From assembly GCF_900104085.1 (NCBI RefSeq), contig NZ_FNLD01000003.1:555001-619000 (forward strand): 64,000 nucleotides of DNA, written 5' to 3'. Within the stretch, counting starts at the first letter, position 1. Each line of letters begins with the position of its first letter. Shown here in pieces: positions 3,668 through 57,165 of the stretch. The notes under the pieces are model-generated. The model was not told where the DNA came from. It ran no database searches and saw nothing but the letters and a program-made list of their open reading frames with translations. Made by a program: the position numbers and the translations under genes. Source of the stretch: Pseudoxanthomonas sp. CF125 (GTDB lineage Bacteria; Pseudomonadota; Gammaproteobacteria; Xanthomonadales; Xanthomonadaceae).

Positions 3668-3696
3668 TTGACGTATATCTGTAACCACACTATGTT
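3668..3696 (+). promoter_or_regulatory. Sigma70 promoter of the nrdAB riboswitch transcript
   Basis: TTGACG (3668-3673), a 17-bp spacer and TATGTT (3691-3696). The expected start of transcription falls a few bases further on, at the beginning of the cobalamin riboswitch. The metE leader has the same -35 hexamer and the same spacing. Confidence 0.75.
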
Positions 3697-3700
3697 GTGG
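3685..3700 (+). promoter_or_regulatory. Candidate NrdR box overlapping the nrdA -10 element
   Basis: The 16-bp dyad CCAC-N8-GTGG with core ACTATGTT resembles the NrdR operator pattern ACAC-N8-GTGT found in front of many ribonucleotide reductase operons. A weaker partner, CCAC followed by ATATAGTA, starts at 3656, 29 bp upstream. NrdR boxes normally occur in pairs about three helical turns apart. The matches are imperfect, so this is a suggestion only. Confidence 0.4.
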
Positions 3701-3895
3701 CTGTCGGTTCCGATGGCTCTCGCCTTCGGATGAAAAGGGAAGCCGGTGCGGCTCTTGCGAGCCCATCCCGGCACTGCCCCGCAGCGGTAGGTGGAAACGA
3801 AGTCGCGATACGCACTGGTGCGCTGCACCGGGAAGCAGCGGCCTAGGAGGAAGCGAAGCTTCCATGTCCACGAGTCCGAAGACCTGCCGACAGCC
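3699..3895 (+). ncRNA. Cobalamin (adenosylcobalamin) riboswitch upstream of nrdA
   Basis: All landmarks of the B12 riboswitch class occur in order. A closing stem P1 pairs GGCTGTCGG (3699-3707) with CCGACAGCC (3887-3895). Then come AAAAGGGAAGCCGGTG, CACTGCCCCGCAGCGGTAGG, an AACGAAG segment, CACTGG, CGGGAAG and the B12 box CACGAGTCCGAAGACCTGCC. It sits between a sigma70 promoter and nrdA. A GC-rich dyad follows directly (CCGCGCG at 3894-3900 with CGCGCGG at 3909-3915) and may belong to the expression platform. High B12 should reduce expression of the B12-independent reductase. About 180 bases separate the aptamer from the start codon; I see no gene in them. Confidence 0.93.
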
Positions 3896-4075
3896 GCGCG
3901 AAGCACACCGCGCGGTGCCGGCCACGGAATCTCCGGGGGGAGACAGGCTGGCGAAGCAAGGCAGGCGACTTTTCGTCGCGGTGCCTGCGACGCCGCTTTC
4001 CCATCCTGAGAGGCACAAGGCCTGCGCTGCCTGCGAGGGACAGGCCGCCGCGTGCATCATGATGGGAGATACACC

Positions 4076-6493: not shown

Positions 6494-6496
6494 AGC

Positions 6497-6628
6497 TTGA
6501 AGCCCCTCTCCCTGTGGGAGAGGGGTTGGGGTGAGGGTGCGGCGGAACCCGGATTGTTCGAGCGCCAATGCCTTCGCCGTACCCTCATCCGCCCTTCGGG
6601 CGCCTTCTCCCGACGGGAGAAGGGAAAA
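6497..6628. repeat. Extragenic palindromic repeat (CCCCTCTCCC family) between nrdA and nrdB
   Basis: Begins AAGCCCCTCTCCC with the stem partner GGGAGAGGGG, then TTGGGGTGAGGGTGCGGCGGA. It ends with a second stem, CCTTCTCCC/GGGAGAAGG. The same family recurs at 57000-57122 and inside hrpB at 32431-32580. Here it separates two genes that are normally adjacent and could form a partial terminator or an mRNA-stabilising hairpin within the nrd operon. Confidence 0.8.
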
Positions 6629-8082: not shown

Positions 8083-8093
8083 TTTCTTTCAGT

Positions 8094-8178
8094 CGTCATC
8101 CCCGCGAAGGCGGGGACCCAGCGACTTTGAACCAGTCACAAGCCAAGGCACTGGGTTCCCGCCTTCGCGGGAATGACG
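8094..8178. repeat. Inverted repeat CGTCATCCCCGCG...CGCGGGAATGACG between convergent genes
   Basis: Arms at about 8094-8121 and 8150-8178 form a near-perfect hairpin of nearly 28 bp with a 28-base loop. It lies between the converging thioesterase and metE genes, so a bidirectional terminator role is plausible. It belongs to the same CGTCATCCC-ended family as the elements at 12298, 13358, 29446 and 47167. Confidence 0.75.
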
Positions 8179-8193
8179 ATAGGAAATATCGCG

Positions 8194-10674: not shown

Positions 10675-10696
10675 GGAAGGACGGTCTTGTCCTTCC
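10675..10696 (-). promoter_or_regulatory. Hairpin directly after the metE riboswitch (possible expression platform)
   Basis: On the minus strand GGAAGGAC (10696-10689) pairs with GTCCTTCC (10682-10675) around a 6-base loop, a perfect 8-bp stem immediately after the B12 box. No U-run follows, so it is not a classical terminator. It may be an on/off partner acting on translation or on an antiterminator. The rest of the leader down to the start codon shows no gene. Confidence 0.45.
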
Positions 10697-10917
10697 GGCC
10701 GGGGCAGGTCTTCGGGCTTATGGACGGGCGCACGGGACGGCGAGTGCGCTGGCCTACTTCCCGCCGCTTCCCAGTCCGTCCGGACCAGTGCGATGACGAG
10801 GTTCGTTTCCAAATACCGCTGCGGGGCAGCGCCGGAATTGGACTCTTGCGGAGTCCGCACCAGCTTCCCTTTTAATTCCATCGCTCTATCTGCATAAAGC
10901 GATGGAAACCTTGGCTT
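10696..10917 (-). ncRNA. Cobalamin riboswitch upstream of metE
   Basis: Read on the minus strand, the class landmarks occur in order: TTAAAAGGGAAGCTGGTG, CGCTGCCCCGCAGCGGTAT, GAAACGAA, GCACTGG, CTGGGAAG, and the B12 box CATAAGCCCGAAGACCTGCC at about 10722-10703. The outer stem is less regular than in the nrdA copy, so both ends are approximate. It begins right after a sigma70-like promoter. This is the second B12 riboswitch within 7 kb. The two aptamer sequences differ considerably outside the conserved core, so they are not a recent duplication. Confidence 0.93.
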
Positions 10918-10921
10918 GCGC

Positions 10922-10950
10922 AACTTACGCCGCCAACGGCGGGGCGTCAA
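10922..10950 (-). promoter_or_regulatory. Sigma70 promoter of the metE riboswitch transcript
   Basis: On the minus strand TTGACG (10950-10945), a 17-base spacer and TAAGTT (10927-10922). The expected start site is at the 5' edge of the riboswitch. The -35 hexamer and spacer length equal those of the nrdA promoter. Confidence 0.7.
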
Positions 10951-12287: not shown

Positions 12288-12297
12288 CCCTAAAGAT

Positions 12298-12429
12298 CGT
12301 CATCCCAGCGGTCTTTAACAGCCGAATGGCTGGTCAAGCTGGGATCCATTTTGACTTTGCTTCTAAAGACAGCGGGTGCTGCAGCCACAATCAAAATCAA
12401 GATGGATCCCAGCTTTCGCTGGGATGACG
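12298..12429. repeat. Composite inverted repeat left of purU (CGTCATCCCAGCG family)
   Basis: Outer arms CGTCATCCCAGCG and CGCTGGGATGACG enclose an inner unit containing GGTCTTTAACAGCCGAATGG and CTGGGATCCATTTTGAC. It is the reverse complement of the element at 13358-13485, so purU is bracketed by the two in opposite orientation. Confidence 0.8.
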
Positions 12430-12485
12430 ACGTCTTGGGTCTGGGCCGACGGGCCGGCGGAACGCGAAGCGATTAGTATTGCCCC

Positions 12486-13337: not shown

Positions 13338-13357
13338 GACGACCAGATAAAAATCTC

Positions 13358-13485
13358 CGTCATCCCAGCGAACGCTGGGATCCATTTTGACTTTCGCTTA
13401 GGCCAGTCACGCCGAGCAAAGAGCAAGATCAAGATGGATCCCAGCTTGACCAGCCATTCGGCTGTTAAAGACCGCTGGGATGACG
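13358..13485. repeat. Composite inverted repeat right of purU
   Basis: Outer arms CGTCATCCCAGCG and CGCTGGGATGACG. The right half (TGGATCCCAGCTTGACC, then AGCCATTCGGCTGTTAAAG) is the exact reverse complement of the left half of the element at 12298. A short derivative without the central part is at 29446-29497. Confidence 0.8.
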
Positions 13486-13519
13486 AGCGAGAGTTTCGCG
13501 GCTACAGGTGGACACCGAC

Positions 13520-15821: not shown

Positions 15822-17132
15822 ATGTCTTTTTCAAACCGAATCGCCATGCGTACTCTGCTCTTCGCTTTGCTGCCGGCCAGCGCAATCACTGCGCAGGCGC
15901 AGACCTCCGTCGCGGCGGATGCCTTGCAACGCCTGCAGCCTGAGATCGTCCAATGGCGCCGCGATATCCATGAGCACCCGGAACTGGGCACCCATGAAGT
16001 CCGCACCGCCAAACTGGTCGCCGACCAACTGCGCGCGCTGGGGCTGCAACCGAAGACGGGCATCGCCCAGACCGGCGTCACCGCCATCCTCAAAGGCGGC
16101 AAGCCCGGTCCGCGCATCGCCATCCGCGCCGACATGGACGCGCTGCCGGTCACCGAGCAGACCGGACTGCCCTTCGCGTCGAAGGTGACCGGCGAATATC
16201 GCGGCCAGCCGGTCGGTGTCATGCACGCCTGCGGCCACGATGCGCACGTGGCGATGCTGCTGGGCGTGGCCTCGGCCCTGGTGGCGATGAAGGACCAGTT
16301 GCCGGGCGAGGTGATGTTCGTGTTCCAGCCGGCTGAAGAAGGCCCACCGAACGCGGGCGAGGAATTCGGCGCGGCGCTGATGCTGAAGCAAGGCATCTTC
16401 GCCGACTTCAAACCGCAGGCGGTATTCGGCCTGCATGTCTGGGCGGGTTTGCCGGTGGGCAAGGTCGGCACCCGCAGCGGCGCGGTGATGGCCAGCGCCG
16501 ACGAGTGGACGTTGACCGTGCATGGCAAGCAGACCCATGGTTCGCGGCCGTGGGACGGCGTGGACCCGATCACCCTCGGCGCGCAGATCCTGCTGGGCAC
16601 GCAATCGATCATCGCGCGCCAGGTCAACATCGCCGCCACGCCAGTGGTGCTGACCGCCGGACAGTTCCAGAGCGGCGTGCGCTTCAACATCATTCCCGAC
16701 GAAGCCAAGCTGGTGGGAACCCTTCGCACCTTCGATCCGGCGGTACGCCAGGACGTGATCGATCGCTTCCATCGCACCGCGCAAGACTTCGCCCATGCCG
16801 GTGGCGGCACGGCGGAGCTGCAGGTCGTGAACAACGCACCGGCCACGATCAACGACCCGGCGCTGGCGCAACGCGGCCGCGCTTCGCTGGAAAGCGCGCT
16901 GGGCGCAGGCAACGTGGTGGAGATGCCGCTGGTCACCGTGGCCGAGGATTTCTCGCAGTACGCCACCGCCGCCCCGACTTTCTTTTTCTTCGTCGGATCG
17001 ACCTCCCTCGGCACCGATCCCGCCACCGCGCCGATCAATCATTCGCCGCAGTTCCTGCTAGACGAGCAGTCGCTGCAGGTCGGCAGCAAGGCGATGCTGC
17101 AGGTGGCACTGGATTATCTGAGCAGTCCTTAG
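15822..17132 (+). CDS. Exported M20D-family amidohydrolase (first of tandem pair)
   Basis: A 436-residue metallohydrolase of the hippurate hydrolase/IAA-amino-acid hydrolase type, which removes acyl groups from amino acids. A signal peptide (MRTLLFALLPASAITAQAQ) is followed by the M20 core: RADMDALPVTEQTGLPF, the metal-binding HACGHDAH, the catalytic PAEEGP and a late PQFLLDE-type motif. A lid-domain His lies in KQTHGSRPWDGVDP. ATG 15822 (or 15846) gives the signal peptide. The next gene is a close paralogue, 157 bp away, with a palindromic repeat between them. Confidence 0.9.
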   Translation: MSFSNRIAMRTLLFALLPASAITAQAQTSVAADALQRLQPEIVQWRRDIHEHPELGTHEVRTAKLVADQLRALGLQPKTGIAQTGVTAILKGGKPGPRIAIRADMDALPVTEQTGLPFASKVTGEYRGQPVGVMHACGHDAHVAMLLGVASALVAMKDQLPGEVMFVFQPAEEGPPNAGEEFGAALMLKQGIFADFKPQAVFGLHVWAGLPVGKVGTRSGAVMASADEWTLTVHGKQTHGSRPWDGVDPITLGAQILLGTQSIIARQVNIAATPVVLTAGQFQSGVRFNIIPDEAKLVGTLRTFDPAVRQDVIDRFHRTAQDFAHAGGGTAELQVVNNAPATINDPALAQRGRASLESALGAGNVVEMPLVTVAEDFSQYATAAPTFFFFVGSTSLGTDPATAPINHSPQFLLDEQSLQVGSKAMLQVALDYLSSP

Positions 17133-17138
17133 CAAGCC

Positions 17139-17238
17139 GTAGGAGCGACGTAAGTCGCGAATGCACATTCGGTAGCGTGCATCGGCATCGGGATGGAACG
17201 CACGGCTCTTTTCCCTTCGCGACTTACGTCGCTCCTAC
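17139..17238. repeat. Palindromic repeat GTAGGAGCGACGTAAGTCGCGA between the tandem amidohydrolases
   Basis: Arms GTAGGAGCGACGTAAGTCGCGA and TCGCGACTTACGTCGCTCCTAC are perfect complements and enclose about 56 bases. The start is the GTAGGAGCG of the elements at 15699 and 30083, but the inner arm differs, so it is a subfamily. Confidence 0.8.
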
Positions 17239-17289
17239 GCGCCCCCCCCAGAACGGGTTAGCATCGGTGCACTTCCTCTGGAGCCGACG

Positions 17290-18606
17290 ATGACCATCCA
17301 ACTTCGAATCGCACCGCTGATGCTGGCCGCACTGGCGACCACGTTTGTCGCTGAAGCTCAGGAAACGCCTGGCCAGCGCGCCGAGGTCGCCGCGGCGGCA
17401 AGTGAGCTCGACGCGAAGATCGTCGCCTGGCGCCGCGATTTCCACGCGCATCCGGAGCTTTCCAATCGCGAGGAACGCACTTCGGCCAAGGTGGCCGAAC
17501 ACCTGCGCGCGCTGGGCTTGCAACCGAAGATCATGGCCGGCCACGGCGTGGTGGCGATCATCGCTGGCGGCAAGCCGGGCCCGAAGATCGCCCTGCGCGC
17601 GGACATGGACGCGCTGCCGGTGACCGAACAGACCGGCCTGCCGTTCGCGTCGAAGGCCACTTCCACCTATCGCGGAGAGAACGTCGGCGTCATGCACGCC
17701 TGCGGACACGATGCGCATACCGGCATCCTGATGGGCGTGGCCGAGGCGCTGGTGGCGATGCGCAAGGATTTGCCGGGCTCGGTGATGCTGATCTTCCAGC
17801 CGGCCGAGGAAGGCGCGCCGCCACCGGAGGAAGGCGGCGCTTCGCTGATGCTGAAAGAAGGTCTGTTCAAAGACTTCAAGCCGGAAGCGGTGTTCGGACT
17901 GCATGTTTTTTCCAGCGTGCAGGCAGGACAGATCGCCGTGCGGCAGGGGCCGCTGATGGCCGCGTCGGACCGGTTCTCCATCAAGGTGACGGGCCGGCAG
18001 ACGCACGGCTCGGCGCCGTGGAACGGCATCGACCCCATCGTGGCGGCGGCCGACATGATCGGCACCGCGCAGACCATCGTCAGCCGGCGCACCAACATCG
18101 CCAAGCTGCCGGCGGTGGTGACCTTCGGCGCCATCAAGGGCGGCATCCGCTACAACATCATTCCCGACGACGTGGAAATGGTCGGCACCATCCGCACCTT
18201 CGACCCGAAGATGCGCCAGCAGGTCTTCGCCGACCTACGCAACGTGGCCGAGCACACCGCCGCCGCGCACGGCGCCACCGCAAAGACCGACATCTACGAG
18301 AAAGACGGCAATCCGCCCACGGTCAACGATCCGGCGTTGACTGCGAAGATGCTGCCCAGCCTGCAGGCGGTAGTCGGCAAGGACAATGTGTACGAGCCGC
18401 CGTTGCAGATGGGATCCGAGGATTTCTCGCTGTATGCCCTGGAAGTGCCGTCGATGTTCTTCTTCGTCGGATCGACTTCCAAGGGCATCGATCCCGCTAC
18501 TGCGCCCAGCAACCATTCGCCGAAGTTCCTGCTGGACGAATCGTCGCTGGACATCGGTTTCCGTGCGCTGATGCAGGTAACGCTGGATTACCTGCACGCC
18601 CCGTAG
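17290..18606 (+). CDS. Exported M20D-family amidohydrolase (second of tandem pair)
   Basis: A 438-residue paralogue of the preceding gene with signal peptide (PLMLAALATTFVAEAQ) and the same motifs: RADMDALPVTEQTGLPF, HACGHDAH, PAEEGAP, and QTHGSAPWNGIDP in the lid. Conservation of all metal ligands suggests both copies are active. Differences in the loop after PAEEG and in the lid domain may give different substrates. The stop TAG (18604-18606) is the second to fourth base of a GTAGGTCGGGG repeat arm that follows. Confidence 0.9.
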   Translation: MTIQLRIAPLMLAALATTFVAEAQETPGQRAEVAAAASELDAKIVAWRRDFHAHPELSNREERTSAKVAEHLRALGLQPKIMAGHGVVAIIAGGKPGPKIALRADMDALPVTEQTGLPFASKATSTYRGENVGVMHACGHDAHTGILMGVAEALVAMRKDLPGSVMLIFQPAEEGAPPPEEGGASLMLKEGLFKDFKPEAVFGLHVFSSVQAGQIAVRQGPLMAASDRFSIKVTGRQTHGSAPWNGIDPIVAAADMIGTAQTIVSRRTNIAKLPAVVTFGAIKGGIRYNIIPDDVEMVGTIRTFDPKMRQQVFADLRNVAEHTAAAHGATAKTDIYEKDGNPPTVNDPALTAKMLPSLQAVVGKDNVYEPPLQMGSEDFSLYALEVPSMFFFVGSTSKGIDPATAPSNHSPKFLLDESSLDIGFRALMQVTLDYLHAP

Positions 18607-18632
18607 GTCGGGGCTACGCCCCCGACACCACG

Positions 18633-22470: not shown

Positions 22471-22508
22471 CCGATGCCGTTGTCGGCGATTTTGTCGGGA
22501 TTCTGAAG

Positions 22509-22574
22509 GTAGGTCGGGGCTACGCCCCCGACCCTGGAATTCTCGCGCGTGTCGGGGGCGTAGCCCCGACCTAC
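22509..22574. repeat. Palindromic repeat GTAGGTCGGGGCTACGCCCCCGAC
   Basis: Perfect 24-bp inverted arms around about 18 bases, between convergent icd and the MHYT gene. Further copies of this family are at 36114, 52777, 55730 and 56898; single or mixed arms occur at 18603 and 28386. Confidence 0.88.
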
Positions 22575-22579
22575 GGCGT

Positions 22580-23335
22580 TCAGATGGTGACGGCCGCGCG
22601 GCGCTGGCGGCGCAGCATGGTCATCACCAGCATCGTGGTCAGCAGCAGGGTCGAGACGGCGAACACGCCCATGCCCAGGTATTCGCCCACCAGACCGCCC
22701 GCGGTCGCGACGGCCGCATCCTCGCCGGTCGGCATGAAGTGCGCCGCGTACATGCCGGTGTAATGCATGCCGCACACGGCCACGCCCATGACCAGCGCGC
22801 TGCCCAGCATCTGCGCCCAGCCGCGCAGGTTGAAGGCCAGCCACAGCGCCACGGTCGAAGCGACCACGGCTATCAGCACCGACACCGCGACAATATTGGT
22901 GTCGTACATGGTCGTCGCCGGCATGCGCATCGCCGCCATGCCGGTGTAATGCATGCCGGCCACGCCAAGACCCATGAACGTTCCCGCCGCCACCAGCTTG
23001 CCCCAAGAGAAGACGCCGCTACCGGCGATAGCCAGTCCGATGGTGCAGGCGCCGATCGCGAACACCGCCGACAGCACGGTCAACCCTGGATCGTAGGCGA
23101 CCGGAATCTCCATCCGGCAAGCCAGCATGGCGATGAAGTGCATCGCCCAGATTGCGCCGCCGCCCATGGCCACGCCCGCCGCCAGCAATGCCTGCCAGCG
23201 TTGCGCCGAGGTGCGCGCCGCCGGGATGCTTATCGCCATCTGCAAGGCGGTGAACGAACCGAGCACCGAGACCAGGAAAGACAGTGCGACCAGCACCGGA
23301 TCGTGGATACATTGCACAGCATGATCATGCGGCAT
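22580..23335 (-). CDS. Stand-alone MHYT-domain membrane sensor protein
   Basis: A 251-residue protein with seven hydrophobic segments and three MHYT-type motifs: WAMHFIAM (about 64-70), AGMHYTGMAAMRM (about 125-137) and CGMHYTGMYAAHFM (about 187-200). Conserved Met and His residues of the domain are thought to hold copper and sense O2, NO or CO (family knowledge). There is no GGDEF, EAL or kinase domain after residue 225, so any signal must pass through a partner. It lies 55 bp downstream of the V4R gene and is probably co-transcribed with it. Confidence 0.88.
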   Translation of the reverse strand: MPHDHAVQCIHDPVLVALSFLVSVLGSFTALQMAISIPAARTSAQRWQALLAAGVAMGGGAIWAMHFIAMLACRMEIPVAYDPGLTVLSAVFAIGACTIGLAIAGSGVFSWGKLVAAGTFMGLGVAGMHYTGMAAMRMPATTMYDTNIVAVSVLIAVVASTVALWLAFNLRGWAQMLGSALVMGVAVCGMHYTGMYAAHFMPTGEDAAVATAGGLVGEYLGMGVFAVSTLLLTTMLVMTMLRRQRRAAVTI

Positions 23336-28385: not shown

Positions 28386-28482
28386 GTAGGTCGGCCCCGT
28401 ATCGAGTACGGGGCCGGCTCTACGTGGCCGACAGAAGCTTTACCCGTGCGCCAAGAGCGTCGGGGGCGTAGCCCCGACCTAC
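28386..28482. repeat. Mixed GTAGGTCGG repeat arms between aceK and the methyltransferase gene
   Basis: A short hairpin GGCCCCGTATCGAGTACGGGGCC (given as its span 28394-28416) is followed by the arm GTCGGGGGCGTAGCCCCGAC ending in CTAC at 28482. The left arm is diverged, so only the right half matches the main family. Confidence 0.65.
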
Positions 28483-28547
28483 TTTGCAACGGGTCTTTGC
28501 GGAGCGCGTGCTAGGCTCGCCGCACTTTCAAACGCGGAGTGCTTTGC

Positions 28548-29405: not shown

Positions 29406-29445
29406 GGCTTCGGCGGGAGTAACGGTACCCCAGTAGAGTTTGAGT

Positions 29446-29497
29446 CGTCATCCCAGCGGTCTTTAACAGCCAAATGACTGGTCAAGCTGGGATGACG
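29446..29497. repeat. Short derivative of the purU-flanking repeat
   Basis: CGTCATCCCAGCGGTCTTTA...CAAGCTGGGATGACG. It is the outer half of the elements at 12298 and 13358 closed on itself, without the ATCCATTTTGAC centre. Confidence 0.8.
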
Positions 29498-30661: not shown

Positions 30662-33280
30662 TCATGTGCCGCGCGGCTTAGCGCGGTGCGTGGCCATCGC
30701 GGTCCAGGGATCATCAGGCCACGGATGCCGCGGATACCTTCCCTTCATCTCCTTCTTCACTTCCGGATAAGTGCGCTCCCAGAAACCGCGCAGATCCTGG
30801 GTGACCTGCAACGGCTTTCCGCCCGGCGACAGCAGATGCAAGGTGACGGGGATGCGCCCGTCGGCGACGCGCGGCGTATCGGCCAGGCCGAACAGTTCCT
30901 GCAGTTTCACCGCCAATACCGGCGAATGGCCGTGCGTGTATTCGATCTTGCGCTCCATGCCGGACGGCACCGCGATGCGGACGGGCGCGAGCTGATCCAC
31001 CCGCTGGCGCTGGCTCCAGTCGAGACCGGACTTCAGGGCGTCGGCGAGTTCTTCTTCGCCAAGAGCATCCAGGCGGGTCTTGCCGACAAAGGCCGGTCTG
31101 AGCCAATCGGCCAGGGAGGCGATCAACGCTTCATCGGAGAGATCGGGCAGTCCGAGTTCCGGCATCCATTGGCGCAGCGAGCGAACCCGCTCCCGCCATT
31201 GCCGCAACGGCTCGCTCCATGGCAGCGAATCCAGCCCCAGTTCGCGCACCGCCTCGGTCAATGCGGCGGCGGCGTGCTGCGGATCGACACGGCCGGCCGG
31301 TCTGGTTTCCAGCACTATCTGATCGAAGCGGGTCTCGCGCTGCGCTTGCAGCACGCGCCTGGCCGCGTCCCAGCGCACTGCGTCTTCGCTGACGAAACGT
31401 TGTGGGAAGTCGTGGCGCAACCGTGCTTCGTCGACAGGCGCGGCGCGCAGAATCAGTGCGTCCTTGGTTTCGTAGCGCAACTCGCTGGCCACTATCCAGG
31501 GTTCGCCGTAGATCGCGCTGTCGTCGAACACCCGGGCCATGCGTCCGTTGGCCAACTGGTAGCGGCGCGGGTCGAGTGGGTGCTGATGCGCGATGCGGTC
31601 GGGAAAGGCATGCGCCAGCAGATCGCCGAGACGGTGCGCTTCGATGTCTCGCGGTGGCGTGCTGTCGACACGCAGGCGGCGACGCCACTGTTTGGCTGCC
31701 GCATCGATGGCAGCCAGACCGGAACGGTGCGCGTCGCCGGCAACGCGGCCTTGCCGGAAGGAGGACAGCGCACGCCAGCGCGCGGCCAGCGCATCGCCAC
31801 CATTGCGCAATGGATCGCGCGCTTCCACCAGTGCCGCCAGATCGCAGGCCAGCGCCCGGTCTTCTTCGCCCTGCGCCGACAGCAGCATCGCCGCCAGACG
31901 CGGATGGGTGCCGAGCGTGAGCATGCGTTTGCCCAGCGCGGTAATGGAGTCCGACTCGGCCAATGCGCCCAGGCGACGCAATAGGTCGCGCGCCGCCGAC
32001 AGCGCGCCTGCCGGCGATGTGTCTACGAAGCGCAAGGCGTCGCTGCCCCATGCCGCGAGTTCGAGTGCGAGCGACGCCAGCTCGACTTGCGCGATCTCGG
32101 GACGGCGCTGCGGTTCCAGCCGTTGCGACTGCGGCCACAGGCGATACGCCCAGCCTTCGGCGACACGGCCCGCGCGTCCGGCGCGCTGGTCGGCCGAAGC
32201 TTGCGAAATGTTGACGATCTGCAGTCGTGCGAAACCGCTGTTGGGGTCGTAGCGCGGCTCGCGCGCCAGGCCGCTGTCGATCACCACGCGCACGCCGGGC
32301 AGGGTGACGCTGGATTCGGCGACGTTGGTGGCCAGCACCACGCGGCGGCGGCCTTGCGGATCGGGTTGCAGGGCTTGGGATTGTTGTTCGATGGAGAGTT
32401 CGCCGTGGAGGGGGAGGACGACGATCTCTTTCCCTTCTCCCACTGGGAGAGGGTGGCAGGCAGCGCCGGGTATCGAAGCCGCCTCAAGCGGCTGAGGTGC
32501 GGCGAAGTCAGCCATGTCCGAACCATCGCTACTCCGCCGTACCCTCACCCCAACCCCTGTCCCGGGGGGAGAGGGGCTTAAAGCCGCCTCTACTCGCGCT
32601 ATCTCCCGCTGCCCCGGCAAGAAAACCAGCACATCGCCCGGATGCTTTTCCAGCGACTCTTCCACCGCGCGCCTGGCCTGCGATTCGAGCGATTCGTCGC
32701 GTCGTCCCGGGAAGTGCGCGACAGTCACCGGATAACTGCGGCCTTCGCTGCTCAACCTGGGCGCGTCGAGGAAGCGGGCGAGCTTCTCGCTATCGAGCGT
32801 GGCCGACATCACCACGATGCGCAGATCCTCGCGCAACTGCTCCTGCACATCGAGCGCCAGCGCCAGGCCCAGATCGCCGGCGAGGTGGCGTTCGTGGAAT
32901 TCGTCGAACAGCAGCGCGCCGATACCCTCCAGCATCGGATCGTCCTGCAGCATGCGGGTGAAGATGCCTTCGGTGACCACTTCTACGCGGGTACGGGCGG
33001 AGACCTTGTTCTCGAAACGGATCCGGTAGCCCACGGTTTCGCCCACCGCTTCGCCCAGCTGCCCGGCCATGAAACCGGCGGCGGCGCGCGCGGCTACCCG
33101 GCGCGGCTCCAGCATCACTATCTTGCGTCCGGCCAGCCACGCCTCGTCGAGCAAGGCCAGTGGCACCTGGGTGGTCTTGCCGGCGCCGGGCGGCGCTTCC
33201 AGCACCAGACGCGGATGCGCCGCCAGCGAGGTGCGGATCTGCGGCAGCAGGGCCTGGATGGGAAAAGACGGCAATACCAT
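30662..33280 (-). CDS. hrpB: ATP-dependent RNA helicase HrpB with in-frame repeat insertion
   Basis: DExH-box helicase of the HrpB family (872 residues; family members are usually about 810-850). Visible are Walker A APPGAGKTTQVPL, FDEFHERH, SATLD, VLATNVAESSVTLPGV, QRAGRAGR and the HrpB-specific C-terminal region. Between VLVFLPGQREIARVEAAL and VVLPLHGELSIEQQ the protein contains about 50 extra residues (about 234-284). These are encoded by an in-frame copy of the CCCCTCTCCC palindromic repeat (32431-32580). The helicase core resumes intact after it. ATG 33280 was preferred to TTG 33286. Confidence 0.94.
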   Translation of the reverse strand: MVLPSFPIQALLPQIRTSLAAHPRLVLEAPPGAGKTTQVPLALLDEAWLAGRKIVMLEPRRVAARAAAGFMAGQLGEAVGETVGYRIRFENKVSARTRVEVVTEGIFTRMLQDDPMLEGIGALLFDEFHERHLAGDLGLALALDVQEQLREDLRIVVMSATLDSEKLARFLDAPRLSSEGRSYPVTVAHFPGRRDESLESQARRAVEESLEKHPGDVLVFLPGQREIARVEAALSPSPPGTGVGVRVRRSSDGSDMADFAAPQPLEAASIPGAACHPLPVGEGKEIVVLPLHGELSIEQQSQALQPDPQGRRRVVLATNVAESSVTLPGVRVVIDSGLAREPRYDPNSGFARLQIVNISQASADQRAGRAGRVAEGWAYRLWPQSQRLEPQRRPEIAQVELASLALELAAWGSDALRFVDTSPAGALSAARDLLRRLGALAESDSITALGKRMLTLGTHPRLAAMLLSAQGEEDRALACDLAALVEARDPLRNGGDALAARWRALSSFRQGRVAGDAHRSGLAAIDAAAKQWRRRLRVDSTPPRDIEAHRLGDLLAHAFPDRIAHQHPLDPRRYQLANGRMARVFDDSAIYGEPWIVASELRYETKDALILRAAPVDEARLRHDFPQRFVSEDAVRWDAARRVLQAQRETRFDQIVLETRPAGRVDPQHAAAALTEAVRELGLDSLPWSEPLRQWRERVRSLRQWMPELGLPDLSDEALIASLADWLRPAFVGKTRLDALGEEELADALKSGLDWSQRQRVDQLAPVRIAVPSGMERKIEYTHGHSPVLAVKLQELFGLADTPRVADGRIPVTLHLLSPGGKPLQVTQDLRGFWERTYPEVKKEMKGRYPRHPWPDDPWTAMATHRAKPRGT
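32431..32580 (-). repeat. Copy of the CCCCTCTCCC extragenic repeat inside hrpB
   Basis: On the minus strand it reads AAGCCCCTCTCCC, TTGGGGTGAGGGTACGGCGG, GATGGTTC, TGACTTCGCCGCACC and CCCTCTCCCAGTGGGAGAAGG. These landmarks are shared, in order, with the intergenic copies at 57000-57122 and 6497-6628. Its length of 150 bp keeps the reading frame. Confidence 0.88.
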
Positions 33281-33397
33281 CGACAAAGGCTAACGGTAAC
33301 GCGCGTCGATTGCAGGCCCGAACTGCGATGGGATGCGGTGGCGGCCGTCATCTGCATGGGCTAGATTCCGGACAGACCCCTTCGAAAGGATTCGCCG

Positions 33398-35328: not shown

Positions 35329-36117
35329 ATGCAACTTATCGACATCGGCGCCAACCTCACCCATGACAGTTTCGACCCCGACCGCGACGCGGTTCTGCAG
35401 CGCGCGCGCGATGCCGGGATCGTGCAGATGGTGATCACCGGCGCCAGCCGCGAGCATTCGCCCAAGGCGCTGGCGTTGGCTCAGGCGCACCCGGGCTTTT
35501 TGTTCGCCACCGCCGGCGTGCACCCGCATCACGCGCTGGAATACACCGACGAATGCGACGCTGAGATGCGCACCCTGCACGCGCATCCGCAAGTGGTGGC
35601 GGTGGGCGAATGCGGCCTGGATTACTTCCGCGACTTTTCCCCGCGCCCGGCCCAGCGCAAAGCATTCGAGCGCCAGCTACAGCTTGCTTCGGAGAACGGC
35701 AAGCCGCTGTTCCTGCACCAGCGCGACGCGCACGCCGATTTCATGGCGGTAATGAAGAACTTCGAGGGGCGGATCGGGCCGGCGGTGGTGCATTGCTTCA
35801 CCGGCACCCGCGAGGAAATGTTCGATTACCTGGACCGCGACTGGCACATCGGCATCACCGGCTGGCTATGCGACGAGCGCCGCGGCCTGCACCTGCGCGA
35901 GCTGGTGAAGAGCATTCCCGCCAACCGGCTGATGATCGAAACCGACGCGCCCTACCTGCTGCCGCGCACGGTCAAGCCAAAGCCTTCGCACCACCGCAAT
36001 GAACCCAGGTACCTGGCTCACATCGTGGAAGAGCTGGCGCGCGATCGCGGCGAGGACGTGGCGACCACGGCGGCGATAACCACGGCAAACGCGCGCGAGT
36101 TCTTCCGCCTGCCGTAG
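35329..36117 (+). CDS. tatD: TatD-family 3'-5' DNA/RNA exonuclease
   Basis: A 262-residue metal-dependent TIM-barrel hydrolase. Segments: IDIGANLTHDSF, GVHPHHA, VGECGLDYFRDFS (metal-bridging Glu), LFLHQRDAH, VHCFTGTREEM and MIETDAPYLLPR (catalytic Asp). The IGANLT start is that of the TatD branch rather than YcfH. It acts in DNA repair and RNA quality control. The stop TAG (36115-36117) lies in the first bases of a GTAGGTCGGGG repeat. Confidence 0.94.
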   Translation: MQLIDIGANLTHDSFDPDRDAVLQRARDAGIVQMVITGASREHSPKALALAQAHPGFLFATAGVHPHHALEYTDECDAEMRTLHAHPQVVAVGECGLDYFRDFSPRPAQRKAFERQLQLASENGKPLFLHQRDAHADFMAVMKNFEGRIGPAVVHCFTGTREEMFDYLDRDWHIGITGWLCDERRGLHLRELVKSIPANRLMIETDAPYLLPRTVKPKPSHHRNEPRYLAHIVEELARDRGEDVATTAAITTANAREFFRLP

Positions 36118-36181
36118 GTCGGGGCTACGTCCCCGACGCTCGGCCAATTTTCAGAGCGTCGGGGACGTAGCCCCGACCTAC
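36114..36181. repeat. Palindromic repeat GTAGGTCGGGGCTACGTCCCCGAC overlapping the tatD stop
   Basis: Perfect inverted arms (with GTCCCC instead of GCCCCC in the loop side) around GCTCGGCC...GAGC. Bases 2-4 are the tatD stop codon. Convergent genes lie on both sides. Confidence 0.88.
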
Positions 36182-36186
36182 AGGCG

Positions 36187-36651
36187 TCATTCCTTCGGCA
36201 CCGGGGTCGACTGGTGAATGACCAGCTGCCAGTGCCCGTCACGGCGCACGAATACGTTGAGGAAGCGCAGCGCCATGGCGCCGTAATTTCCCTTGTAGGT
36301 GCCGGCCACGTTCTCGATACCGGTCACCAATGCCGTGTCGCCGTACACGGAGACTTCCATGTCCTGGTCTTCGACTCGATCCGGCTTCAGTTCTCCCGAA
36401 GCGAATACTCCGATATCGGCCTCGCGGCTTACGACCGAGCCATTCATGGAATGGACGCGGAATTCTTTGGCGTACAGGCGCTCGAGATACGCGACATCGC
36501 GCTTGACCCGCGCCGCCGCCCATTCGTCCTGGATCCTGAGCAGTTCCTTCCCGCTCTCTCCGGCAGATTGAGCAACACCAGGGGCAGTCGGGGCGAGCCA
36601 CAGCGCAACCACAACCGCTGCCGATTTCACCAGGGAGGTGAACTCGATCAT
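36187..36651 (-). CDS. Exported SnoaL/DUF4440-like (NTF2-fold) protein
   Basis: A 154-residue protein with signal peptide (AAVVVALWLAPTAPGVAQ). A cystatin/NTF2-like domain follows: ELLRIQDEWAAARVKRDVAYLERLYAKEF, cited by its span 31-59, then VSVYGDTALVTGIENVAGTY and a C-terminal RDGHWQLVIHQSTPV. The fold commonly holds small ligands or acts as an isomerase-like enzyme; the role is unknown. ATG 36651 gives the signal peptide. It lies 25 bp after another exported minus-strand gene. Confidence 0.83.
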   Translation of the reverse strand: MIEFTSLVKSAAVVVALWLAPTAPGVAQSAGESGKELLRIQDEWAAARVKRDVAYLERLYAKEFRVHSMNGSVVSREADIGVFASGELKPDRVEDQDMEVSVYGDTALVTGIENVAGTYKGNYGAMALRFLNVFVRRDGHWQLVIHQSTPVPKE

Positions 36652-41044: not shown

Positions 41045-41178
41045 CCCCCTCCCTTGCGAAGCAGGGGAGGGTTGGGGAGGGGTGCTCTTGATCTTGCCTT
41101 TAGCTCTTCTCAAAGCAACAACAACAGCAAAATCAAAAGCACCCCTCCCTAGCCCTCCCCTGCTTCGCAAGGGAGGGG
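41045..41178. repeat. Inverted repeat CCCCTCCCTTGCGAAGCAGGGGAGGG within the ABC operon
   Basis: Arms of about 40 bp (CCTTGCGAAGCAGGGGAGGG and its complement) around a 50-base AT-richer centre containing CAACAACAACAGC. It separates the ATPase gene from the permease gene of one transporter. Confidence 0.85.
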
Positions 41179-43012: not shown

Positions 43013-43041
43013 CTTTTCCTTCTCCCGGTGGGAGAAGGAAA
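43013..43041 (+). terminator. Terminator-like hairpin after fpr
   Basis: TTTTCCTTCTCCC/GGGAGAAGGAAAA with a 3-base loop, symmetrical A and T tracts. The stem is the outer part of the CCTTCTCCC repeat family. Confidence 0.7.
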
Positions 43042-47104: not shown

Positions 47105-47166
47105 GCTTGCGTCGAAAAGGAAATGGACCGCCTGGATGGTTTCCCTGAAGAAAAGAAAGGAAACAA

Positions 47167-47352
47167 CCGTCATCCCGGCGAATGCCGGGACCCAACTTCC
47201 AGTTGATGCAATGTCGGAACGTGCGCCGTGAGAAATTGACCGGCACGTACGTTGTTCATGCGTAATGACAGGGCGTGCACAGATCATTTCCCACCGCTGA
47301 CCAACCACTTCAATCGCTGTTAGTTGGGTCCCGGCATTCGCCGGGATGACGG
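47167..47352. repeat. MITE-like element with perfect 31-bp terminal inverted repeats
   Basis: Arms 47167-47197 and 47322-47352 (CCGTCATCCCGGCGAATGCC..., perfect complements) flank 124 bases of less GC-rich sequence. The ends resemble the CGTCATCCC elements at 8094, 12298 and 13358, but this is the longest copy. Confidence 0.8.
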
Positions 47353-47436
47353 TCTTTAATTTTAGAACCGGCCTTCTTCATTTCCAGCCCGTACCCGGCA
47401 TCGCGCTTCGTGCGATTTCTGTACAGAACTTCCGGC

Positions 47437-52702: not shown

Positions 52703-52998
52703 GGGGCCCTCGGGCGGTTTGCGGTGGAAAGAACCGGAAATTCTATAGGGACACCCGGGCTCCGGTCAACCATGGCGTAGGTCGGGGCTACGCCCCCGAC
52801 GCCCGCCAACTCGGCCACGCGTGCTGTCGGGGACGTAGCCCCGACCTACCGCGGTGGCCTAGCGGTGTTGCTGAACGCGGTGGATAACTCCCGTGCCGCG
52901 CGCCGTCGCGTGATAATGTGGCCGACTGTATTTCACCCGCGTCCCGCGCCGTTCGACTGCCGCGTGCACGCCCTTTCGAAGACCGATCGCCGCCCTCG
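52703..52998. other. 296-bp divergent region between rpmH and dnaA
   Basis: Contains the palindromic repeat 52777-52849, a single near-consensus DnaA box (GGTGGATAA, 52880-52888, complement TTATCCACC) and a GTGATAAT -10-like element around 52909-52916, likely for dnaA. The rpmH promoter should lie next to 52703-52760. No gene seen. Confidence 0.6.
52777..52849. repeat. Palindromic repeat GTAGGTCGGGGCTACGCCCCCGAC upstream of dnaA
   Basis: Left arm with GCCCCC, right arm with GTCCCC (one mismatch pair) around about 25 bases. This copy lies between divergent genes, so a terminator role is unlikely here. Confidence 0.85.
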
Positions 52999-55711: not shown

Positions 55712-55729
55712 GCGGGGGGCCTTTTCGCC

Positions 55730-55801
55730 GTAGGTCGGGGCTACGCCCCCGACGCTCGGGTAGGTTGGTTCCTCTTTGTCGGGGACGTAGCCCCGACCTA
55801 C
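55730..55801. repeat. Palindromic repeat GTAGGTCGGGGCTACGCCCCCGAC before recF
   Basis: Left arm with GCCCCC, right arm with GTCCCC around about 25 bases. It ends 14 bp before the recF start codon, so a hairpin in the mRNA could influence recF translation. Confidence 0.87.
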
Positions 55802-55815
55802 GCAGGGGCCGGCGG

Positions 55816-56901
55816 ATGCAAGTAACCCGCCTCACCGCCTCCGGCCTACGTCGCTTCGAAAGCGTGGCGATCGAACCCGCTGCTGGCCTCAACCTGATTA
55901 CCGGCGACAACGGCGCCGGCAAGACCAGCTTGCTGGAGGCCCTACACCTGATGGCTTACGGGCGCAGTTTCCGTGGGCGGGTGCGGGATGGGCTGGTGAG
56001 GACGGGTTCGGACGCCGTCGAGGTCTTCGTGGAATGGCGGGAAGGCCCGGACGCCCGGCACCGCCGCGCCGGCCTGCGCCACACCGGCCAGACTTGGGTC
56101 GGACGCCTGGATGGCGAGAACGTGGCCCAACTGGGCGAACTCTGCGCCGCGCTGGCAGTGGTCAGCTTCGAACCCGGCAGCCATGCTCTGGTAACCGGCG
56201 GCGGCGAACCCCGGCGCCGGTTCGTGGATTGGGGGTTGTTCCACGTGGAACAAGGTTTCCTGTTGCTCTGGCGCCGTTATGCCCGCGCCCTGAAACAGCG
56301 CAATGCTCTGCTGAAGTCGGGCGCAGGCGGGCAGCAGCTGGATGCCTGGGATCATGAGCTGGCGGAAGCCGGGGAGCCCCTCACCCGCCATCGACGCCAA
56401 TACCTGGAACAACTCCAGCTTCGCCTATCTGCGGTCGCCGCGGACCTAGTGCCGGCGCTGGGCGCCAGCAACCTCGAATTCCAACCGGGCTGGCGCAGCA
56501 GCGAGCTGTCGCTGGCCGACGCCCTGTTGCTTGCCCGGGATCGCGACCGGAGCCTGGGCTACACCTCCGTCGGCCCGCACCGAGCCGACTGGCGGATCGA
56601 ATATGCGGGCCATCCCAACCGCGAAGCGCTGTCGCGGGGCCAAGCCAAGCTTTCTGCCCTGTCCGCCCTGCTCGCGCAAGCCGAGGACTACGCCCAGCGG
56701 CGCGGTGAGTGGCCTATCGTCGCCCTGGACGATCTTTCCTCGGAGCTGGACCGCAAGCACCAGCAACGGGTGCTGCAGCGCCTCCTGGCCAGCGGCGCTC
56801 AGATATTCATTACCGGCACCGAAGCCCCGGCCGCTCTGGAAAGTATTGAGGCGACACCGGCGGTGTTCCACGTGGAACAAGGCCAAGTTCTGCGCACGTA
56901 G
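55816..56901 (+). CDS. recF: DNA repair and recombination protein RecF
   Basis: SMC-like ATPase loading RecA at gaps with RecOR (361 residues). Walker A ITGDNGAGKTSLLEALHLM, signature LSRGQAKLSALSALLAQ, Walker B WPIVALDDLSSELD and D-loop. ATG 55816 starts MQVTRLTASGLRRFES, the usual RecF N-terminus. Two perfect parS-type palindromes lie within the coding sequence and translate as FHVEQ. The stop TAG belongs to the downstream GTAGGTCGGGG repeat. Confidence 0.97.
   Translation: MQVTRLTASGLRRFESVAIEPAAGLNLITGDNGAGKTSLLEALHLMAYGRSFRGRVRDGLVRTGSDAVEVFVEWREGPDARHRRAGLRHTGQTWVGRLDGENVAQLGELCAALAVVSFEPGSHALVTGGGEPRRRFVDWGLFHVEQGFLLLWRRYARALKQRNALLKSGAGGQQLDAWDHELAEAGEPLTRHRRQYLEQLQLRLSAVAADLVPALGASNLEFQPGWRSSELSLADALLLARDRDRSLGYTSVGPHRADWRIEYAGHPNREALSRGQAKLSALSALLAQAEDYAQRRGEWPIVALDDLSSELDRKHQQRVLQRLLASGAQIFITGTEAPAALESIEATPAVFHVEQGQVLRT
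56237..56252. promoter_or_regulatory. parS-like site 2 (inside recF)
   Basis: TGTTCCACGTGGAACA, a perfect 16-bp palindrome extended to 18 bp (TTGTTCCACGTGGAACAA), identical to the symmetric parS form known from Pseudomonas. Confidence 0.9.
56864..56879. promoter_or_regulatory. parS-like site 3 (inside recF, near its end)
   Basis: TGTTCCACGTGGAACA again, perfect over 16 bp, 627 bp from site 2. Confidence 0.9.
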
Positions 56902-56969
56902 GTCGGGGCTACGCCCCCGACGCTCAGGAAGCCAGGATTCCCTGTGTCGGGGGCGTAGCCCCGACCTAC
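56898..56969. repeat. Palindromic repeat GTAGGTCGGGGCTACGCCCCCGAC overlapping the recF stop
   Basis: Perfect 24-bp arms around about 24 bases. Bases 2-4 are the recF stop codon. Together with the next element it fills the 333-bp recF-gyrB gap. Confidence 0.88.
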
Positions 56970-56999
56970 CCGCTTCTCTCTGAGGAAGAAGACGCCGGA

Positions 57000-57122
57000 A
57001 GAGCCTGCCCCGCGCTTGATGCGGGGCGGATGAGGGTGCGGCGAAGTCATTAGCGTGTGAACTATCCTGGTTTCGCCGTACCCTCACCCCAACCCCTCTC
57101 CCGCCGGGAGAGGGGCTTCAAG
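57000..57122. repeat. CCCCTCTCCC-family repeat upstream of gyrB
   Basis: On the minus strand: AAGCCCCTCTCCC/GGGAGAGGGG, TTGGGGTGAGGGTACGGCG, GGATAGTTC, then TGACTTCGCCGCACCCTC and a CCCCGC stem. It is the best intergenic match to the copy inside hrpB. A -10-like TATAAT (57136-57141) follows, so the gyrB promoter abuts the repeat; the remaining leader to 57234 shows nothing else. Confidence 0.83.
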
Positions 57123-57165
57123 GCGGCCGAAATGCTATAATTCCTGCCTCACTCCCTATAGCTAA

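Follow-up and report, generated by a model that had tools for sequence, protein, structure and literature searches.

A palindromic repeat carried in frame by the hrpB gene of Pseudoxanthomonas sp. CF125, a probable gene-less copy of a small DUF559 element

Palindromic repeats found both between genes and within them were described in Rickettsia, where the Rickettsia palindromic elements (RPEs), 105–146 bp long, are inserted in frame and free of stop codons (Ogata et al., 2000, 2002, via PMC2229807 and PMC5896051). Repetitive extragenic palindromes (REPs) lying wholly inside open reading frames (ORFs) were reported in several free-living bacteria (Di Nocera et al., 2013; PMC3733652); the examples include recB of X. 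campestris and X. oryzae, where the sites nearly coincide, ORFs of S. maltophilia, and RNA helicases of O. terrae, and CGTC REPs apparently lack a dedicated transposase (PMC3733652). Enterobacterial repeats of 127 bp were also found in frame (Delihas, 2007; PMC2229807). Here we analyze a stretch of 64,000 nucleotides of Pseudoxanthomonas sp. CF125 (the window; positions 555001–619000 of contig C3 of the genome termed G000, L and G numbers designating loci and genomes), in which hrpB contains, in frame, a complete copy of a dispersed palindromic repeat. We consider it probable, at somewhat better than three chances in four, that this insert is a non-autonomous copy, resembling a miniature inverted-repeat transposable element (MITE), of a small mobile element in which a DUF559 gene lies between terminal inverted repeats (TIRs). 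Like the RPEs, the repeat is palindromic, is both intergenic and in frame, and is stop-free; the likeness is drawn from these features, and the repeat differs from the RPEs in that its host is a free-living member of the Xanthomonadaceae and not Rickettsia, in that a candidate partner nuclease has borders matching its own, and in that one protein loop appears to have been filled repeatedly.

The repeat-derived segment of HrpB

The host gene, hrpB (30662..33286, minus strand), is an ORF for an 874-residue DEAH-box RNA helicase, recognized by Pfam HrpB_C, TIGR01970 (1157 bits) and PDB entry 6EUD, the HrpB of E. coli. The whole repeat, with T1 end, center and T2 end, occupies 150 nt on the same strand (32429..32578; HrpB residues 237–286); it starts with AGCCCCTCTCCC at 32578 and stops with GGGAGAAGGGAAA at 32429, has both ends, and contains no stop codon. 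Its T1 end (AGCCCCTCTCCC...GACAGGGGTTGGGGTGAGGGTACGG; 42 nt, 32537..32578, minus strand) has near-identical counterparts of 42–44 nt that border DUF559 genes, while its T2 end, the hairpin CCCTCTCCCAGTGGGAGAAGGGAAA (32429..32453, minus strand), is of the type that borders DUF559 in a Mur-ligase gene. Both ends are read in one open frame, as SPSPxGRGVGxR...LLPxGEGK. A search profile derived from 19 further copies in G000, none with coding support and with the hrpB and purL copies left out, finds the hrpB copy with E = 3.5e-22. Moreover, 6EUD aligns to residues 3–237 and 285–870, with 3 residues in place of the 47 that are unaligned here, and in an AlphaFold2 model (30-sequence alignment; mean predicted local distance difference test score, pLDDT, 79.4; predicted template modeling score 0.57) residues 239–285 have pLDDT <50 and are flanked by a helix (226–236) and a strand (288–293); this segment is predicted to be disordered, which fits a surface loop. 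The insert lies directly after a Leu codon, in a variable loop between a helicase motif, which we take to be motif IV, and the PLHG strand. Judged from the sequence, its 50 residues would be translated and neutral to the protein.

Two further copies in the window are intergenic. The complete one (L111; 6501..6626, plus strand; folding z-score -5.1) has hairpin T1 at its near end (AGCCCCTCTCCC-n-GGGAGAGGGGTTGGGGTGAGGGTACGG), the pairing arms TGAGGGTGCGGCG and CGCCGTACCCTCA at its center, and hairpin T2 at its far end (CCTTCTCCC-n-GGGAGAAGGG); the other (L113; 56969..57117, minus strand, outer edge approximate) has a degraded T2 end. Gapless similarity of the hrpB copy to 6495–6583 and 57035–57125 is 76% and 79% over 89–91 nt, the stretches with the three copies have folding z-scores of -3.5 (hrpB), -5.1 and -5.4, and the window contains 6 occurrences of CCCCTCTCCC, versus 0.15 expected. 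The ends read AGCCCC in T1, CCCTTCTCCC in T2 and CTCCCTCCC in a third type of repeat, T3.

The initial annotation had derived about 50 HrpB residues from an in-frame, stop-free repeat of 150 nt, and this is borne out, with its coordinates within 2 bases of ours. The copies that it called intergenic, near 6497 and 57000, are both without coding support, and the surface-loop position that it proposed agrees with the 3-residue loop of 6EUD and with the low pLDDT. Its comparison with RPEs, taken as one of process, is supported by the profile, the 6EUD alignment and the AlphaFold2 model, and alignment with relatives placed the insertion boundaries, which run from the Leu codon to T2. The DUF559 partner, the occurrence of the repeat in other proteins and the filling of the HrpB loop more than once go beyond that first reading.

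Within G000, 69 repeat places were surveyed in 67 of 68 loci (L164 yielded none); the survey is incomplete, with 7 of 57 T2 palindromes unlisted and 40 of the 84 candidates from one search scored. A place was accepted when it had a stop-free frame and coding-like codon use on both sides. Six places in five genes were accepted: one each in hrpB, purL (L126), priA (L147) and folC (L154), and two in the gene for a Mur-ligase homologue (L169). The segments are 50 residues long in PurL, 51 in PriA and 44 in FolC, as compared with 9, 7 and 0 residues in the respective PDB homologues.

DUF559 genes and their repeat borders

The four strong DUF559 genes of G000, besides which it has one weak match, are all adjoined by T1, T2 or T3. 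Inverted repeats link both flanks at 24 of 42 DUF559 loci and at 0 of 42 control flanks taken at 800–1150 bp, and the repeat profiles match within 350 bp at 29 of the 42 loci (15 on both sides) versus 2 of 42 further out (p = 4.8e-10). The same holds for further DUF559 loci of the genus (13/26 with profile borders versus 0/26 in the control), whereas T repeats lie within 350 bp of only 3 of 73 hrpB gene ends, always on one side. A cross-pair border control (16/150 at the cut-off) was apparently spoiled by homologous host genes and was not used. The gene-bearing partner shares its ends with the gene-less repeat, in inverted order. Of ten T1-DUF559-T1 candidates, nine were measured, and these are 438–440 bp long in seven cases and 410 and 498 bp in two. 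Their inner 45 bp are mostly 76–98% identical (L194 is not alignable), and their outer 58-bp flanks are 12–41% identical except in two pairs at the start of hmgA, which reach 76% and 66%. Motifs of hpd and hmgA are present at eight T1-DUF559-T1 loci from several genera (L185, L189, L198, L210, L211, L302, L305 and L312), a recurrence that reflects either a conserved site or homing; the nucleases at this site form one clade (99/90), unresolved in a larger tree of 68 domains.

DUF559 is also found inside host proteins. In the Mur-ligase homologue of G000, a cyanophycin-synthetase-like protein (L169; G000:C6:192465-195770), two T2 hairpins enclose a whole in-frame DUF559 domain. DUF559 is present at one Mur-ligase linker in five genomes (L237, L238, L220, L222, L225), and 12 empty orthologues (L239–L243, L246–L252) join the same host segments directly; L244 and L245 were unparsed. 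Among MmeI-like restriction-methylase proteins, L217 has DUF559 in frame, flanked by MmeI_TRD and MmeI_C; L230 has it in frame with MmeI_C; and a third, L218, has it after the target-recognition domain. Pfam reports no Hint or other splicing (intein) domain around DUF559 in L169, L217, L218, L220, L222 or L225. The embedded nucleases L186, L220, L222, L225, L212, L217 and L218 form one clade (100/95, the bootstrap not settled), and outside it fall DUF559 domains standing in frame ahead of a host domain, the host gene recurring across genera: SpoU methylase (L221, L301), a tRNA-synthetase-like protein of class II with tRNA-synt_2 (L223, L311) and TilS (L219); these five frames may be mere upstream extensions and not fusions.

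The repeats and the nuclease also occur together. DUF559 matches, a few of them weak, were found in 34 of 38 Pseudoxanthomonas genomes and in 39 of 60 genomes of the family, and T1 is present in 30 of these 39 as opposed to 1 of the 21 without DUF559 (p = 4.5e-8). T1 was counted by exact matches, which gave one control match in all; when 2 mismatches or fewer were allowed, the control with the reversed pattern gave 41 versus 45, probably from resemblance to T3, and this count was not used. The 11 genomes with an hrpB insert contain more T1 copies than 26 without one (p = 1.7e-4). In addition, when border types are placed on the tree of 68 DUF559 domains, 7 changes are needed, versus a mean of 16.8 after shuffling (0 of 200 as low), and 8 of the 10 T3-bordered domains form one clade (87/94, the bootstrap not settled).

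DUF559 is classed as PD-(D/E)XK, and in Caulobacter a methyltransferase mutant depends on the DUF559 protein VsrA for its DNA-damage response (PMC12907096); the word palindrome is absent from that paper. Among PDB entries, 3HRL, an endonuclease-like protein, is the closest to DUF559 (E 3e-24). A part of DUF559 in defense was also considered, and PADLOC gave no match for two of the proteins. A full element would be about 440 bp long and would consist of a palindromic TIR (T1, T2 or T3), the DUF559 gene and the same repeat inverted. Where the gene is absent, the two repeat ends would stand head to head as an interspersed repeat of 120–200 nt. We infer that DNA cleavage by the DUF559 protein moves or copies the element; the bordered unit, or the gene-less pair of borders, would be copied into the break, and selection would retain only copies that are extragenic or in frame and harmless. 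A copy landing after the Leu codon of hrpB would have given the helicase a disordered linker and left the protein intact.

Several points weigh against this reading. A nuclease by itself is no transposase. The border tests cover 42 of 81 DUF559 matches of the family and 26 of 28 loci of the genus, and since many bordered DUF559 genes stand at hpd-hmgA, neither loci nor genomes are independent. T1–T3 are missing within 350 bp at 26 of 68 DUF559 loci, of which some (L188, L193, L197, L201 and L208) have inverted repeats of other types and others have none. T1 is missing from 9 of the 39 family genomes with DUF559, three copies occur in G104, which has no DUF559, and within the genus the association is weak, T1 occurring in 24 of the 34 DUF559-bearing genomes and in 1 of the other 4. 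Finally, no target-site duplication was resolved at the insertions. A wider proposal, for which we find the balance even, is that TIR-DUF559-TIR units form a class of their own among mobile elements with palindromic borders, run by a Vsr-like nuclease, each nuclease lineage with its own repeat type and preferred sites. Their gene-less copies would be the interspersed repeats of the Xanthomonadaceae, and one lineage would have specialized for life in frame inside Mur ligase and MmeI without splicing, gene-less copies living likewise in HrpB, PurL, PriA and FolC.

Filling of the HrpB loop and rival explanations

Among 30 hrpB loci of the genus, 11 have a filled loop (69–93 residues between the two motifs) and 19 a short one (29–40). 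In the 11 filled genes, all from different genomes, the repeat occupies one position and is read in frame without a stop codon, and in all of them the insert starts right after the Leu codon, followed in L004 by a mutated ACTCCC start, and finishes in T2; the composite inserts are of about 42–67 residues. One locus of the short class, L013 of P. wuyuanensis, has a T3-like stretch of 15 residues. In the family census, hrpB was matched in 138 of 139 genomes (54 genera), and the match is broken at the loop in 22, of which G000 and 20 of the other 21 were examined (G177 was left out). The loops of these 20 have 63–117 residues by motif, many with clear or decayed repeat residues, for example SPSPAGRGVGER...LLPRGEGN or PSSGAAGHLLLEGEG; some look like decayed linkers rich in Gly, Ser and Ala, and loops L279, L280 and L282–L284 match no repeat used. 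A stretch PESGQDA.TEGKA, likewise without a match to the repeats used, is present in the loops of L037, L053 and L284 and is possibly a fourth repeat family. The repeat profile matches 26 of the 46 long loops, which becomes 25 of 43 without the duplicates L285 and L286 and the misparsed L063, and none of 74 short ones. It has no match elsewhere in hrpB in the sequence covered, which was only about 2 kb for 20 of 120 loci; four loci had matches outside the gene and three were unparsed. Copies elsewhere in hrpB are presumably absent because they would destroy the helicase. A best-match test of loops versus DUF559 flanks (32/43 long, 0/73 short) did not discriminate: outer segments matched too, for 31 of the 43 long loops and 4 of the 73 short ones, and 8 of 116 control hrpB segments matched DUF559 flanks. 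It was replaced by the per-locus border profile test.

Several separate insertions into the loop are likely from the sequences compared. A single ancient insertion, vertically kept or lost, would account for the shared orientation of the T1-T2 inserts and their mostly identical Leu|Ser boundary, and for the separation of 7 inserts, all from one Pseudoxanthomonas clade, as a group of their own (FastTree support 0.89) from 40 further copies (of G021, G030, G029 and G023, whether intergenic or not). However, the inserts of G000/G033, G019, G003, G091/G181, G073, G088, a Thermomonas metagenome-assembled genome and another such genome are scattered among other copies, in a tree of about 130 aligned bases and low resolution in which the row of G120 was shortened by parsing. 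Moreover, the loops of L013 and L281 match T3, and the inserts of the relatives thus belong to at least two repeat types. On an hrpB tree with the loop removed, the filled state needs 7 changes, at least 5 of them forced by well supported branches, and the empty alleles keep an outgroup-like loop (xDVLPxD-like) that deletion would not restore. Filled and empty alleles alternate between sister species (L009 versus L022, L024 and L025; L006 versus L023). In 90-bp windows on both sides of the junction the filled L009 is nearest to its empty sisters, the letters agreeing to about 10 bp. Long-tract recombination was rejected as the source of the patchy inserts, the flanks not being exchanged, and no co-conversion of flanks was found at hrpB, a site without a nuclease gene, where the flanks of L009 and L006 follow the empty sisters. 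Since the flanks follow the empty sisters and the empty loops are outgroup-like, the patchy distribution is accounted for neither by exchange of long tracts nor by simple deletion. At the junctions, clade-2 inserts replace about 6 host codons, and no duplication is evident. A single ancient insertion is, in our judgment, unlikely.

The same loop bears on the possibility, which we regard as quite improbable, that the insert is a functional peptide module selected in HrpB and not a tolerated parasite. Reading frames tend to be open among 32 other copies (forward frames, 25, 3 and 21 copies; reverse frames, 19, 12 and 13), yet one orientation and frame recurs in hrpB; only 11 of the 32 are open with T2 in the hrpB phase, compared with 13 of 13 parsed hrpB inserts (5 were skipped), and the openness of frames alone does not account for the single orientation. 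A selected module is at odds, however, with the predicted disorder of the segment, the variation of filled loops within the genus, the resemblance of some loops to decayed linkers and the absence of the insert from the majority of species. Quite unlikely, too, is that the repeats are ordinary REPs moved by a REP-associated tyrosine transposase (RAYT; Y1 tyrosine transposase), with DUF559 near them for the reason that both collect between genes. G000 has six Y1_Tnp matches, and REPs of the GTAG and CGTC families inside genes were already known, but neither tag is present at the hairpin foot of the T1, T2 or T3 ends, and none of the four Y1_Tnp loci examined (of six) has T1–T3 within 350 bp, whereas two of them (L142, L143) carry the GTAGGAGC repeats expected of a RAYT. 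Crowding between genes would also leave unexplained the inverted pairs, the match to nuclease lineages and the difference in T repeats between DUF559 loci and hrpB gene ends. An artefact of assembly or annotation, conceivable in that repeats may collapse during assembly, has next to no probability: in-frame versions occur in 11 separate assemblies of the genus and in other genera, which excludes the assembly error that the initial annotation had named as a refutation. We therefore prefer the gene-less copy of a DUF559 element as the origin of the HrpB insert.

Other repeats are also present in the window. A pair of T3 repeats in inverted order, 29 nt apart and of the type that borders other DUF559 genes, lies at 41046..41178, and a solo T2 hairpin, CCTTCTCCCggtGGGAGAAGG, at 43018..43038, neither with an assigned strand. 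A GTAG-type REP family (GTAGGTCGGGGC...), some members of which form inverted pairs, is found at 18600–18632, 22506–22581, 28444–28489, 36111–36188, 52774–52856, 55727–55808 and 56895–56976, and palindromic repeats of the CGTCATCCC... type, similar to CGTC REPs, at 8093–8179, 12297–12444, 13343–13486, 29445–29493 and 47166–47353. Two direct repeats of 211–277 nt with 72–77% identity, 1.47 kb apart (16073–18594), are probably tandem paralogous genes. Rfam matches nothing in the window besides two cobalamin riboswitches (3688–3905, plus strand; 10686–10928, minus strand).

Relation to known systems

DUF559 is common here, yet it is a ‘protein of unknown function’ in Pfam; if it were tied to palindromic repeat families, the domain would acquire a role, and the repeats an agent that moves them. 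Loops of hrpB range from a fresh insert to what appears to be a decayed linker, a natural series along which the formation of new protein segments out of mobile DNA can be traced stage by stage, and, for annotators, stretches such as ‘SPSPxGRGVG’ or ‘LLPxGEGK’ can derive from repeats.

Free-standing Vsr-like homing endonucleases are encoded by small nuclease genes that occupy fixed sites across species and are patchily present. The elements described here resemble them in their fixed and patchy sites, hpd-hmgA, the Mur ligase (5 filled, 12 empty) and hrpB, but have palindromic borders, leave no co-conversion tract at hrpB and lie in frame without intron or intein. As in bacterial MITEs (PMC2229807; the Coxiella QMITE, PMC5896051), there are gene-less copies with terminal inverted repeats and in-frame fusions; here, however, the ends are palindromic and G+C-rich without 5'-TA, no target-site duplication was resolved, and the partner is DUF559. 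As in REPtrons with their RAYT and in TIRtrons (PMC3733652, PMC2817692), a nuclease-type gene has palindromic or TIR borders and many gene-less copies, with DUF559 in place of the HUH tyrosine transposase. The intragenic GTAG and CGTC REPs are also short palindromes in ORFs of free-living bacteria, Xanthomonas included (PMC3733652), whereas T1–T3 lack both tags and the hrpB inserts are composite. The claim of the initial annotation that this is a new demonstration in a free-living gammaproteobacterium does not stand, such intragenic REPs being known; DUF559, Vsr and hrpB are not mentioned in the main text of that report (PMC3733652), and none of the papers listed in a literature search linked DUF559 to repeats by its title or the opening of its abstract (subscription journals and preprints outside its scope). 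Thus, repeats in frame were known before, and what is new in comparison with these systems is the link to DUF559 and the use, more than once, of a single loop in HrpB.

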